Position numbers and translations under genes: made by a program. A DNA stretch of 64,000 bases from an uncultured Prevotellaceae bacterium. GTDB lineage: Bacteria > Bacteroidota > Bacteroidia > Bacteroidales > Bacteroidaceae. The first letter of the stretch is position 1. Each line of letters starts with the position of its first letter. The notes beneath the pieces are model-generated. The model was not told where the DNA came from, did no database searches, and was given only the letters and a program-made list of their open reading frames with translations. The DNA lies in contig CAMHJQ010000004.1 of the NCBI GenBank assembly GCA_946185485.1, forward strand, positions 62,001 through 126,000, read 5' to 3'. Below, piece by piece: positions 18,094 to 34,044 of this stretch.

Positions 18094-19584
18094 ATGAAAC
18101 GCATTTACCTTATTATATTAGTCTGTTGGACGATGCTGTCAGTCGCCTCGGCGCAGGAACTCACCGTCAAGGAGATGAAGGCCACCAACGACATCTCCGC
18201 CAGCCAGTACCGTGTGAACGACCTGAACGGTCAGCCTTGTGCACTGGTGAAGGTACAGCTGGCTACTCGCGGCGCCAAGTTCGCGGGTAGCGTCATCGGC
18301 ACACCGGAATTTAAGAACGGTGTCTACTGGGTGTATATGCCTGCCGGCGTCAAGGAACTGGAGGTGCAGCACAATAGCTTCGTGCCGTGTCACGTCACGT
18401 TCAGCGACTACGGCATCCAGTCGCTGCAGAGCCTGACCACCTACGTCCTGACACTGCTCATGCCGCAGGGTGGGGCAGCACCTGTTCAGGTGCAGAAACT
18501 CGTCATCAAGTATTCCCCTGCCAACGCCACTGTCATTATTGATACCAAATTATATAAAGGAAACGGAAGAGTGGAAGCCGAACTACCTGTCGGCAATCAT
18601 AATTATCTGATAGCCGCCGATGGCTACGAGTCAGTCGAGGCAACAGTGAAGCTGACAGCTAATACACCACGAACCGTTACAGAGGAACTTAACAAGACTG
18701 TCGTTCAGGAGGCCATAGCGTCGACAGAAACCAGAAAGGAAAAAGTTCAAGAAAAAAAAGAACAGAAAACTGAAGGGGGAAAAGACCCCTTTGAAGAGTT
18801 CTTCTCAGACCCTTTTGGTGGATTCTTCGGTACGTCTAAGAAATCTTCTAAAAATCAAACGACAACAGAAACAACAGACGGAAATCTCCCGGCCGTGGAG
18901 ACATTTACCGTTAATGGCGTGTCGTTCAACATGGTTCGTGTGGACGGAGGCACGTTCACGATGGGTGCCACGAGCGAACAGGGCAGTGATGCTAATGGTG
19001 ACGAAAAGCCTGCCCACCAGGTTACGCTGTCCACGTACAGCATCGGCGAAACGGAGGTGACACAGGCCTTGTGGCAAGCCGTGATGGGTAGTAATCCTTC
19101 CCGAAATAAGAGCGAGAATCTGCCTGTGGAGGAAGTGAGTTGGAAAGATTGTCAGAAGTTTATTTATAACTTAAGAAAAATGACGGGTAAGCGTTTCCGC
19201 CTGCCTACTGAGGCAGAATGGGAGTATGCTGCCCGTGGAGGAAACAAGAGCAGAGGATATAAATACAGCGGCAGCAACGACTTGGGCAGTGTTGCTTGGT
19301 ACACTAATAATAGTGGAAGTAAAACCCACGATGTCAAGACCAAGCAGGCTAACGAATTAGGTTTGTATGACATGAGCGGCAATGTTTATGAATGGTGCCA
19401 GGACAAGTGGGGTGATTATAAAAGTGGTTCTCAGACAAATCCCAATGGTCCAAGCAGTGGGTCTACCCGTGTTGTCCGTGGTGGGTGCTGGGGCGCCGGT
19501 CCGCAATTCTGTCGCTCTCCGTATCGTGCCAGTTACAACCCTTCGCATGGGTTCGACAACCTCGGGCTCCGTCTAGCCCTTTGA
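18094..19584 (+). CDS. Shared-module/PEGA protein with FGE-like C-lectin domain; candidate DGR target
   Basis: A 496-residue secreted protein: signal peptide (ending SVASAQ), shared module with the RVNDLNGQPCALVKVQL variant, a PEGA repeat (YSPANATVIIDTKLYKGNGR), a charged linker (EKVQEKKEQKTEGG), then an FGE-sulfatase-type domain from ~265. Landmarks: VNGVSFNMVRVDGGTFTMGA, GETEVTQALWQAVMG, RLPTEAEWEYAARGG, ELGLYDMSGNVYEWCQD and RVVRGGCW. The paired active-site cysteines of true FGE are not arranged as expected, so it is probably a binding rather than a catalytic domain. The final 120 bp resemble the variable regions of two sister genes. Transcribed from cassette A. Confidence 0.85.
   Translation: MKRIYLIILVCWTMLSVASAQELTVKEMKATNDISASQYRVNDLNGQPCALVKVQLATRGAKFAGSVIGTPEFKNGVYWVYMPAGVKELEVQHNSFVPCHVTFSDYGIQSLQSLTTYVLTLLMPQGGAAPVQVQKLVIKYSPANATVIIDTKLYKGNGRVEAELPVGNHNYLIAADGYESVEATVKLTANTPRTVTEELNKTVVQEAIASTETRKEKVQEKKEQKTEGGKDPFEEFFSDPFGGFFGTSKKSSKNQTTTETTDGNLPAVETFTVNGVSFNMVRVDGGTFTMGATSEQGSDANGDEKPAHQVTLSTYSIGETEVTQALWQAVMGSNPSRNKSENLPVEEVSWKDCQKFIYNLRKMTGKRFRLPTEAEWEYAARGGNKSRGYKYSGSNDLGSVAWYTNNSGSKTHDVKTKQANELGLYDMSGNVYEWCQDKWGDYKSGSQTNPNGPSSGSTRVVRGGCWGAGPQFCRSPYRASYNPSHGFDNLGLRLAL
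19465..19584 (+). other. Candidate variable region of a DGR target (third example)
   Basis: Aligned with the variable ends of the genes terminating at 26524 and 32568, this end has GTC, GGC, GCC, TTC, GCC, AGT, TAC, CAT, TTC and GAC at the matching sites. All can be reached from AAC or AAT by changing adenines only. Constant sites (CGT, GGT, TGG, TGT CGC TCT) are retained in between. Silent differences elsewhere show it is a more distant relative, so the support is weaker. Confidence 0.5.
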
Positions 19585-26523: not shown

Positions 26524-26643
26524 TCAGAAGGCCAAGCGCAGCCCGAGGTCGTAGCAGCGGTCCGAAGGCTCGTAGTAGTCGCGGTACGAAGAGCGGCAGT
26601 ACCTCGCGGTGCAGTACCAGCTGCCCCCGCGGAACACGCGGCC
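26524..26643 (-). other. DGR-type variable region (VR) of the FGE-like gene
   Basis: The last 39 codons plus stop. Against the sister VR (32568-32687) 25 bases differ in 17 codons, 15 of them non-synonymous, while the preceding ~430 bp are identical. Twelve codon pairs (for example GGC/TAC, TTC/ATC, TGC/CAC, TAC/AGC) both derive from AAC. The invariant codons include CGC GGG GGC AGC TGG and CTC GGG CTG. Template and reverse transcriptase were not found in the window. Confidence 0.82.
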
Positions 26644-28296
26644 AGACCCACTACTAGGACCAGTAGGATTCGTTTTTGAACCGCTACTATAGGAGCCATA
26701 CCAGTCCTGGCACCATTCATAAACATTGCCGCTCATGTCGTACAAGCCCAGCTCGTTGGGCTGCTTGGTCTTCACATTATGAGTTCTATTAAAACCAGAC
26801 CAAGCTACATCATCTATTGTATTGCTGCCGCTGTACTTGTAGCCACGGCTCTTGCTACCGCCACGGGCGGCATACTCCCATTCCGCCTCCGTCGGTAGGC
26901 GGAAGCGCTTACCAGTTGCAGTGTTCAGTTTGCTGATGAAAGTCTGGCAATCATCCCAGCTCACCTGTTCCACAGGCAAGTTATCGCCCTTGAACTTCGA
27001 AGGTTTGTTGCCCATCACAGCCTTCCACAATGCCTGCGTCACCTCCGTCTCGCCGATGCTATACGTGGACAGCGTAACCTGGTGGGCAGGCTCTTCGAGA
27101 ACATTAGCATCACTGCCCTGTTCGCTCGTGGCACCCATTGTGAACGTGCCTCCGTCCACACGTACCATGTTGAACGAAACGCCATTAACGGTAATGGTCT
27201 CCACGGATGCGCCGCTGACAGAGGAGGAAGACGAAGAGGAAGCAGATTGTGATGAAGCCGATGCCGTCAGCGTACCGCTGAGCTGCGCCGTCTGGCCCTC
27301 GGCAATGGTCACACTTTGTTTCAGCGTCTCGTAGCCTGCCTTGCGCACTTCAACGCTGTGGTTGCCCACCAACACGCCGCGGAAAACATTGGGTGTTGCG
27401 CCAAGCTGCTTGCCGTCCATCCACACCTCGGCGCCAACAGGACGGTAGTTGACATTCAGGTTGCCCGTGATAGCCACCAGGGCCGGAAGGGTTATCTGCT
27501 CGTTGCTACGCTCGGCAATCGTGACAGTTTGCTGCTGGGAGTGATATCCGTCAAGGCGCGCCTCCATCTTATAGTTGCCGGCAGCCAGCGAACCGCTCCA
27601 AGGCGTGGTGCCGCGCTGCTGACCGTTGACGTAGATGTGGGCGCCGGCGGTTGGACAGCTGACCGTGACACGGGCCAGCACCGACTGCAGCGTCACGCTA
27701 CGAACCAATGTCTCGTCGCCTAATGTCACCGTCTGCTGTTCGGGAGCATAGCCAGCAGCTTCCACCCGATAGCTATGCTGTCCTTGCGGCAGATAGACGC
27801 TGACAGAGCCGTCGCCGTCGACCACCTGCAGCTGACCGTCCACATAGACGGTGCTGTTCTTGGGACTGACGGTCAGCGCCAGGTAGCGCATGCCATCGTC
27901 GACGGGCACTGCCCAACCCTGTGGCATGAGCAGCGTCAGCACATAGGTGGTCAGGCTCTGCAGCGACTGGATGCCGTAGTCGCTGAACGTGACGTGACAC
28001 GGCACGAAGCTATTGTGCTGCACCTCCAGTTCCTTGACGCCGGCGGGCATATACACCCAGTAGACACCGTTCTTAAATTCCGGTGTGCCGATGACGCTGC
28101 CCGCGAACTTGGCACCGCGAGTAGCCAGCTGTACCTTTACCAGTGCACAAGGCTTGCCATTCAGGTCGTTCACACGGTACTGGCTGGCGGAGATGTCGTT
28201 ACCTGCCACCGTCATTGACTTGACGGTGAGTTCCTGCGCCGAGGCGACTGACAGCATCGTCCAGCATACTAATATAATAAGGTAAATGCGTTTCAT
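26524..28296 (-). CDS. Shared-module/PEGA protein with FGE-like domain; DGR target
   Basis: A 590-residue protein: signal peptide (ending SVASAQ), shared module of the RVNDLNG type, three PEGA repeats (VYVDGQLQVVDGDG, IYVNGQQRGTTPWSG, VWMDGKQLGATPNVFRG), a Ser-rich linker, and the FGE-like domain (VNGVSFNMVRVDGGTFTMGAT, GETEVTQALWKAVMG, RLPTEAEWEYAARGG, ELGLYDMSGNVYEWCQD, RVFRGGSW). The domain is identical in DNA to that of the gene ending at 32568 except for the final 120 bp, which differ at adenine-derivable positions. Hence it is a probable hypervariable ligand-binding protein of the envelope. Transcribed from cassette D. Confidence 0.88.
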   Translation of the reverse strand: MKRIYLIILVCWTMLSVASAQELTVKSMTVAGNDISASQYRVNDLNGKPCALVKVQLATRGAKFAGSVIGTPEFKNGVYWVYMPAGVKELEVQHNSFVPCHVTFSDYGIQSLQSLTTYVLTLLMPQGWAVPVDDGMRYLALTVSPKNSTVYVDGQLQVVDGDGSVSVYLPQGQHSYRVEAAGYAPEQQTVTLGDETLVRSVTLQSVLARVTVSCPTAGAHIYVNGQQRGTTPWSGSLAAGNYKMEARLDGYHSQQQTVTIAERSNEQITLPALVAITGNLNVNYRPVGAEVWMDGKQLGATPNVFRGVLVGNHSVEVRKAGYETLKQSVTIAEGQTAQLSGTLTASASSQSASSSSSSSVSGASVETITVNGVSFNMVRVDGGTFTMGATSEQGSDANVLEEPAHQVTLSTYSIGETEVTQALWKAVMGNKPSKFKGDNLPVEQVSWDDCQTFISKLNTATGKRFRLPTEAEWEYAARGGSKSRGYKYSGSNTIDDVAWSGFNRTHNVKTKQPNELGLYDMSGNVYEWCQDWYGSYSSGSKTNPTGPSSGSGRVFRGGSWYCTARYCRSSYRDYYEPSDRCYDLGLRLAF

Positions 28297-32567: not shown

Positions 32568-32687
32568 TCAGAAGGCCAAACGCAGCCCGAGGTCGCTGCT
32601 GCGGTTCGAAGGCGCGTTGATGCTGCGGTACGAAGAACGGCAGATTATCGGGTAGTGGTTCCAGCTGCCCCCGCGGATCACGCGGTA
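32568..32687 (-). other. DGR-type variable region (VR), sister copy
   Basis: Matches 26524-26643 with an offset of 6044 bp. Codons at the variable sites here are TAC, ATC, AAC, CAC, TAC, CCG, ATA, ATC, AGC, ATC, AAC, GCG, AAC, AGC and AGC. Two further silent CGT/CGC differences would need an A in the template third position or ordinary drift. Homology to the sister gene stops at the stop codon. Confidence 0.82.
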
Positions 32688-33974
32688 AGACCCACTACTA
32701 GGACCAGTAGGATTCGTTTTTGAACCGCTACTATAGGAGCCATACCAGTCCTGGCACCATTCATAAACATTGCCGCTCATGTCGTACAAGCCCAGCTCGT
32801 TGGGCTGCTTGGTCTTCACATTATGAGTTCTATTAAAACCAGACCAAGCTACATCATCTATTGTATTGCTGCCGCTGTACTTGTAGCCACGGCTCTTGCT
32901 ACCGCCACGGGCGGCATACTCCCATTCCGCCTCCGTCGGTAGGCGGAAGCGCTTACCAGTTGCAGTGTTCAGTTTGCTGATGAAAGTCTGGCAATCATCC
33001 CAGCTCACCTGTTCCACAGGCAAGTTATCGCCCTTGAACTTCGAAGGTTTGTTGCCCATCACAGCCTTCCACAATGCCTGCGTCACCTCCGTCTCGCCGA
33101 TGCTATACGTGGACAGCGTAACCTGGTGGGCTGGCTTTTCTTTATCCTTTGCATCACTGCCCTGCTCGCTGGTGGCACCCATCGTGAACGTGCCGCCGTC
33201 CACACGTACCATGTTGAACGACACACCATTAACGGTAATGGTCTCCACGGCAGCGCCGCTGACAGAGGAGGAAGAAGAAGACGTGGACTGCGTTGCGGTA
33301 TTTAACTGAACGTTATTGGACTGCTGAACGGAAATCTGCTGAGCAACTGTCTGCTGCGTAGCGACAATGGCTGTCAGCGTCTCGTTGATGGTACGCGAAC
33401 CATCGGTTGTGAGCTTCACGGAACCTTCTGCAGTGGCATAACCATCGGCGGCAATGATATAGTCGTGACTGCCAACGGGTAGCATGGCCTCTACGCGTCC
33501 ACTGCCTTTGTAAAACTTCGAATCAATCAGCACGGTAGCAGTGGCGGGTGCGTAGTTGATGACGAGTTTTTGCATCTGAACAGGTGCTGCCCCACCCTGT
33601 GGCATGAGCAGCGTCAGCACATAGGTGGTCAGGCTCTGCAGCGACTGGATGCCGTAGTCGCTGAACGTGACGTGACACGGCACGAAGCTATTGTGCTGCA
33701 CCTCCAGTTCCTTGACACCGGCAGGCATATATACCCAGTAGACGCCGTTTTTAAATTCCGGTGTGCCGATGACGCTGCCCGCGAACTTGGCACCGCGGGT
33801 TGCCAGCTGCACCTTGACCAAGGCACAAGGCTGACCATTCAGGTCGTTCACACGGTACTGGCTGGCGGAAATGTCGTTACCCGCCACAGTCATCGACTCA
33901 ATGGTTAACTTCTGCGCCGAGACTATGAGCGACAGCAGTAATGACAATATCAAAAAGATGCTCTTTCTTTTCAT
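32568..33974 (-). CDS. Shared-module/PEGA protein with FGE-like domain; DGR target
   Basis: A 468-residue protein (start 33974, since the box at 33994-34001 rules out the upstream ATG). It is a mosaic: its signal peptide and 5' flank match the SPOR gene at 17904, its shared module matches those of the genes at 18094 and 28296, a PEGA repeat follows (INYAPATATVLIDSKFYKGSG), and its FGE-like domain is identical to that of the gene ending at 26524 until the variable end (RVIRGGSW). Adenine-derivable differences fill the last 120 bp. This is the best evidence in the window for both recombination among paralogs and targeted hypermutation. Confidence 0.88.
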   Translation of the reverse strand: MKRKSIFLILSLLLSLIVSAQKLTIESMTVAGNDISASQYRVNDLNGQPCALVKVQLATRGAKFAGSVIGTPEFKNGVYWVYMPAGVKELEVQHNSFVPCHVTFSDYGIQSLQSLTTYVLTLLMPQGGAAPVQMQKLVINYAPATATVLIDSKFYKGSGRVEAMLPVGSHDYIIAADGYATAEGSVKLTTDGSRTINETLTAIVATQQTVAQQISVQQSNNVQLNTATQSTSSSSSSVSGAAVETITVNGVSFNMVRVDGGTFTMGATSEQGSDAKDKEKPAHQVTLSTYSIGETEVTQALWKAVMGNKPSKFKGDNLPVEQVSWDDCQTFISKLNTATGKRFRLPTEAEWEYAARGGSKSRGYKYSGSNTIDDVAWSGFNRTHNVKTKQPNELGLYDMSGNVYEWCQDWYGSYSSGSKTNPTGPSSGSYRVIRGGSWNHYPIICRSSYRSINAPSNRSSDLGLRLAF

Positions 33975-34044
33975 TGTTTTACGATTTTGCATGCAAAGAT
34001 ACGAAATAAATTACAAACTATACGGGTAATATGGATTATTTTGT

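Follow-up and report, generated by a model that had tools for sequence, protein, structure and literature searches.

The question raised by this locus is how two genes that end in an FGE-sulfatase domain came to be identical over several hundred bases and to differ sharply in the 120 bases that follow. The pair lies in the window, by which is meant the whole stretch of 64,000 nucleotides analysed here, and the first-pass annotation of that stretch had read the two genes as a DGR target pair, in which the 3' end of an FGE/C-type-lectin fold is rewritten at adenines by a retroelement. The features concerned are collected in Table 1.

Table 1. Coordinates (window numbering) of the two target genes, their repeats and a third paralogue.
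Feature	Position	Strand	Description
Target gene 1	26524..28296	-	590 aa; signal-like N-terminal segment (by eye), three PEGA stretches, C-terminal FGE-sulfatase domain
Variable repeat 1 (VR1)	26524..26643	-	Tail GRVFRGGSWYCTARYCRSSYRDYYEPSDRCYDLGLRLAF + stop
Identical block, gene 1 copy	26644..27087	-	444 bp, directly upstream of VR1
Target gene 2	32568..33992	-	474 aa; signal-like segment (by eye), one PEGA stretch, C-terminal FGE-sulfatase domain
Variable repeat 2 (VR2)	32568..32687	-	Tail YRVIRGGSWNHYPIICRSSYRSINAPSNRSSDLGLRLAF + stop
Identical block, gene 2 copy	32688..33131	-	444 bp, directly upstream of VR2
Third paralogue	18094..19584	+	496 aa, PEGA + FGE; tail keeps the VR frame, 10/14 NNC

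The FGE-sulfatase domain (PF03781) is matched at residues 376-589 of target gene 1 (2.4e-46) and at residues 260-473 of target gene 2 (2e-50), PF08308 being matched in three stretches of the former and also in the latter. As the PF03781 match extends to one residue from the protein end in the targets, the variable repeats lie at the 3' end of the FGE fold. A recount of the last 120 bp gave exactly the 25 base differences in 17 codons, 15 of them non-synonymous, that had been reported earlier, and these are distributed 13/9/3 over the three codon positions; the offset of 6044 between the gene copies is correct, and the twelve codon pairs described as reachable from AAC are indeed twelve NNC/NNC pairs. 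The claim that the variation is adenine-only holds for 23 of the 25 differences, which are compatible with some adenine template, but does not extend to two silent CGC/CGT differences, for which a CGA template is needed; CGA is absent at these places in all four of the relatives' templates described below. The identity upstream of the tails was also seen correctly, and only its length has to be amended, from about 430 bp (27080 to 26644) to 444 bp. The two copies of this block show zero differences, and hence no silent change in 148 third positions. In the 150 bp upstream of the block, 17 differences separate the two genes (~11% divergence), and over their whole length they have two blocks in common, 714 bp at 94.1% and 335 bp at 92.5%. 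Because of this divergence, the genes are better described as paralogues with one homogenised block than as a plain fresh duplicate, and the "recent duplication" proposed in the first-pass annotation is rejected in its simple form.

The machinery that such a pair calls for was found in congeners. A search with the BPP-1 reverse transcriptase (RT) Brt gave matches in 71 of 200 genomes of the genus (own genome counted), and in two of them, G178 and G009, the RT sits just downstream of an FGE gene that is matched by the window's own sequence. The order of parts in both is FGE target, HRDC gene (PF00570), RT and template, and the same four parts stand in the same order in a third genome, G326 (L175 1747-4354), where a frameshift within the variable repeat of the target places the conserved end LGLRLAL in a different frame. 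When loci were scanned for repeat pairs with mismatches on A in one copy, the BPP-1 pair was recovered and 10 of 13 RT loci gave pairs. In G178 the 3' end of the FGE gene pairs with a repeat that lies downstream of the RT (20 A-site mismatches and 2 others), and so it does in G009 (22 A-site mismatches and 1 other). Among 79 named loci, mostly from Bacteroidales metagenome-assembled genomes, six held A-type pairs, five of the six with RT and HRDC matches, and control scans for C- or G-templated pairs gave 1/79 and 0/31 loci. A further A-type scan matched 3 of 18 loci, of which only L175 was counted. Three loci were excluded from the template pairs: L137, where no RT match was found at the locus; L174, on account of an overlapping inverted repeat; and L172, where two stretches outside recognised tails have 7 A mismatches. 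At another locus, L101 (7095-11154), one template accompanies two variable repeats, and the second target is followed by the first 65 HRDC residues only, a layout which suggests that remote targets can arise through duplication and decay of the cassette.

These templates fit the tails of the window pair. The template peptide of G178, NRVNRGGSWNNNARNCRVSNRNNNSPSNRNNNLGLRLAL, aligns without gaps to both tails, and the template Asn codons of G178 and G009 mark the positions that vary between the two window genes. A search for the template pattern matched 8 of 398 genomes, exactly in G178, G009 and G385 and with two mismatches in G326, the other four genomes having tails of the variable-repeat type, the window's VR2 among them. 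The 25 tail differences fall on template adenines in 19 cases for G178, 20 for G009, 19 for G385 and 19 for G326, more than expected by chance, given that adenines make up 32-37 of 117 sites in these four templates (P from 8e-9, the value for G178 with its 32 adenines in 117 bp, to 7e-8); restriction to codon positions 1 and 2 leaves P at 4e-8 to 2e-6. At the 14 template-Asn codons, both window tails read NNC in 14/14, compared with a third-base C in 36% and 32% of codons elsewhere in the two target genes and with NNC at 10, 3 and 5 of the 14 codons in the tails of three other FGE genes of the window. When VR2 was searched against 397 genomes, 11 matched; the best match outside its own genome was the G178 template and the third best the G009 template, and matches were also obtained in G488, G507 and G544, which belong to other families, and in G201, G207 and G229.

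The two tails are therefore very probably variable repeats of a DGR of the Treponema TvpA type acting on FGE genes. The core of the earlier reading is thus upheld by the congeners' templates, RTs and A-type pairs, by homologues that vary at the same residues, and by TvpA as the nearest solved relative. In the mechanism proposed, the RT is predicted to make errors at adenines as it copies the A-rich template repeat, and the mutated cDNA would then overwrite the 3' end of the FGE-domain genes and rewrite the surface of the protein. The same kind of cassette appears to have acted on this genome, and to have done so recently, because the adjoining block has no silent change in its third positions, provided that the block was homogenised before the last round of mutagenesis. 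One template copied with A-only errors leaves some bases unexplained, because the variable repeats hold two silent CGC/CGT differences and the 148 third positions upstream hold none.

The cassette itself was sought in the window's own assembly, which comprises 3.64 Mb in 111 contigs and is 89.66% complete. No DGR RT was found there: the single RVT_1 match is an AbiP2-type defence RT (E 6.9e-168), rejected as the DGR enzyme for that reason, which lies at 1030-2625 of L001 (contig 8) between genes that look, by eye, like a sugar transferase and an aminotransferase. The BPP-1 Brt had no match in the genome, nor had the RT of G009 in a search that detected G326 and, as positive controls, G009 and G178, and the RT of G178 matched only the VR2 tail, through the end of the RT that overlaps the template. 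As for the template, a VR1 search of the genome returned only VR1 itself and VR2 above noise, and patterns made from the conserved 5' and 3' parts returned the two variable repeats and one site with three mismatches. HRDC had no match in the assembly at E <= 1 in a search run without a positive control, and, save for the template-like tail, nothing left of an RT or HRDC gene was seen at E below 0.3 in the window and four further contig stretches. As regards an IMH and the hairpin expected after it in a complete DGR, the variable repeats have a constant GC-rich 3' end; perfect hairpins of at least 6 bp were absent within 40 bp after either target stop and after the G178 and G009 variable repeats, and a single 6-bp stem follows the VR2 stop at a distance of about 46 bp. 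Outside the genome, the template pattern had no match in viral contigs, where the G009 RT picked out six stretches, none confirmed; among plasmid and phage records, 871 and 144 were matched by the same RT, none of them reaching 60% identity, so that no close mobile carrier is present there. Within the reach of these searches the assembly thus lacks the cassette, a result that says little on the missing tenth. The first-pass annotation had asked for an RT beside a template with A at the variable sites: neither was found in the assembly, but both occur in congeners. It had also regarded the absence of both from the genome as telling against its reading; that absence, as observed in the assembly, does not overturn it, because the assembly is 89.66% complete and because remote and leftover targets are known.

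Tails of this type are more widespread in the genus than the RT. When tails are counted as NNC-rich from 12 of the 14 codons upwards, a cut-off chosen by the analysts, they are present in the window and in 12 of 48 other genomes examined, these being 48 of the 49 other matching genomes (G056 was left out), with at most three candidate places per genome. The survey has 76 rows, of which 36 were scored, 3 were of other length and left unscored, and 37 had no recognisable tail; the 19 scored rows at or above the cut-off count one G009 tail twice and take in the G009 template. Of the 12 congeners, 2 (G178 and G009) have an RT of this clade. No RT match was obtained in G034, G169, G183, G143, G019, G079, G182 or G140, one of which, G079, is 99% complete, and the only RT matches in G049 and G096 are at 27% and 26% identity. 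In G079, a pair of tails differs at 19 of 126 bases, 17 of them with A in one copy, and the 300 bp upstream show 126 differences (ungapped). Less clean are a second G079 pair (a/c) with 33 differences, 22 of them with A in one copy, a G034 pair with 38 (18) and a G143 pair of unequal tail lengths with 55 (21), all counted ungapped over 126 bases. Pieces of cassettes are also seen. At 6119-6591 of L189 (G009, contig 2), a VR-type FGE tail is followed by pieces of HRDC (~31 aa) and RT (~35 aa), and this seems to be a second cassette, now decayed, in a genome that also has an intact one; at L183 (G006), an HRDC piece remains. At 6528-9100 of L174 (G385), the HRDC gene breaks off at about residue 47 and a template comes directly after it; no RT was matched there, and the locus, an eroded cassette, adjoins an IS91 transposase and a tyrosine-recombinase-like gene (below NCBIfam cut-offs).

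Protein-database homologues display the same distribution of variability. Six of them, at 82-91% identity, mostly keep the pattern RVxRGGSW......CRSSxR....PSxR...LGLRLAF and vary between these residues. In a comparison of six sequences (the window pair, P0052, P0057, P0065 and P0069, being 6 of the 15 rows of alignment A1; P0062 and P0068, which have tail insertions, and seven rows at 66-78% identity were left out), pairwise residue differences numbered 179/210 at the 14 template-Asn positions, compared with 33/375 in the rest of the tail, 238/2715 in the FGE domain upstream of the tail and 670/3100 in the N-terminal part. A search of the protein database with the G178 template peptide gave, among the best 120 of 501 matches, none with all 24 constant window-tail positions, the best having 21/24. 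Among the matches listed as P0121-P0240, 118 of 120 hold at least 10 Asn in their best 39-residue stretch, the query being the template ORF and the list being selected for Asn; many of these proteins are named SUMF1/EgtB/PvdO enzyme, and template repeats seem to have been called as genes in public annotation.

By sequence, the best match in the PDB is TvpA, a Treponema variable protein (2y3c, E 4.4e-40). The true formylglycine-generating enzymes, which belong to the same domain family as the targets, come behind it (6muj, 1e-25). When target gene 2 is aligned with 6muj, only the second of the two cysteine columns by which an FGE is recognised holds a Cys. The column that we take to be the first active-site cysteine coincides with one of the hypervariable positions in target gene 2, and because of this ligand binding, not catalysis, is the predicted role of the diversified surface.

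The surroundings of the pair are of a similar character. Between 13281 and 41573, the window holds a cluster rich in genes with PEGA, FGE, Sel1, SPOR and TonB-C domains, many of them with a homologous N-terminal block of varying length, and together they seem to form a modular family with shuffled blocks. One member, the third paralogue of Table 1, is 93.6% identical to target gene 1 over its first 388 bp; its tail and that of the metagenome homologue P0095 differ at only 5 of 39 residues, and it is probably a frozen former variable repeat.

Could the pair have arisen with no retroelement at all, as FGE paralogues whose binding tails have long differed under selection and in which a gene conversion block happened to stop at the tail? 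A homogenised block beside ~11% upstream divergence is what gene conversion would leave behind, FGE tails also vary among paralogues that lack the codon signature, and the two silent tail differences fit a tail older than the block. Ordinary divergence, however, would not retain a third-base C in 28/28 codons, nor would it place 19 or 20 of the 22 first- and second-position differences on the template adenines of other species, and the other three FGE tails of the window reach only 10, 3 and 5 of 14; on these adenine-site and NNC statistics it is rejected, and this explanation is very improbable. An artefact, in which strain variants of one gene were collapsed or mis-joined through the 444-bp repeat, is still less probable: the assembly does consist of 111 contigs and the repeat exceeds short-read length, but the two genes have N-terminal parts of different architecture and sequences that diverge immediately downstream of the stop codons, even swapped tails would both be A-type variants, and the database homologues at 82-91% identity vary at the same positions.

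A further possibility is a version of the preferred reading, with which its odds overlap, namely that a cassette once mutated both genes and has since been lost, the tails being inherited unchanged. This comes a little short of an even chance. Template, RT and HRDC match are all absent from the assembly, 10 of the 12 other congeners with NNC-rich tails lack an RT of this clade, the nearly complete G079 among them, decay is seen in kin at L189, L183 and L174, and T. denticola isolates without RT or template retain their FGE target genes, according to passages of PMC4891356. Against it, all 14 of the template-Asn codons still read NNC in both tails and the block next to them is free of silent change, so any loss would be recent, and the window's own assembly is incomplete. 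Near-repeats and mobile elements are often assembled and binned poorly. A cassette that is unassembled or lies elsewhere and acts in trans, and one that was recently lost, are about equally probable, and the window pair is best classed not as a complete DGR but as DGR targets with a cassette that is unassembled, located elsewhere or lost.

Several described systems bear comparison with these targets. The T. denticola DGR (TvpA and its paralogues; 2y3c), in the portions of PMC4891356 that describe it, likewise has FGE-sulfatase targets with a C-terminal variable repeat, an HRDC accessory gene by the RT (here in congeners) and several remote targets per genome. It differs in that its accessory gene lies between template and RT, in contrast to the order of target, HRDC, RT and template in G178, G009 and G326, in that the window's host is, to judge from the nearest named loci, likely a member of the Bacteroidales and its targets carry PEGA domains, and in that no cassette was found in the window's own assembly. 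The DGR of Bordetella phage BPP-1 (Mtd; AY029185) shares the A-specific mismatches between template and variable repeat and the position of the latter at the 3' end of the target, but it has a phage tail protein as target, a template between RT and target, and a complete cassette. Remote variable proteins of cyanobacteria (PMC7517822) and trans targets of Thiohalocapsa (PMC10907252) are, in excerpts from these papers, variable repeats away from the RT with signs of diversification in trans, which in Thiohalocapsa is an inferred activity. According to the same excerpts, the cyanobacterial targets and those of Thiohalocapsa DGR 4 and 5 have a matching template in the genome, whereas none was found in the window's assembly; the Thiohalocapsa DGR 7 target set also lacks a matching template in its assembly, and long reads there showed structural variants with an intact RT (PMC10907252). 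FGE targets, HRDC accessory genes, remote targets and leftovers are thus already in print, to go by parts of PMC4891356, PMC4159848, PMC7517822 and PMC10907252, and a large metagenome survey states, in a passage of PMC8144416, that its own approach would miss remote targets. A non-exhaustive search of the open-licence literature did not bring up this gene family.

With 444 identical bases beside 120 hypermutated ones, the pair offers a natural sample of DGR mutagenesis, and it widens the range of the TvpA-type system to PEGA/FGE gene clusters of likely Bacteroidales. Target-type tails occur in 12 of 48 genomes and the RT in 2 of those 12, a gap that raises the question, open to testing, of whether DGRs of these bacteria act in trans or are often lost. 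It is conceivable, if rather unlikely, that the genus keeps and disperses FGE variable genes as orphan targets, and that the HRDC-RT-template cassette comes and goes or sits elsewhere and rewrites them in trans; if this is true, a shared diversification engine would serve targets in genomes of which it is not a stable part.
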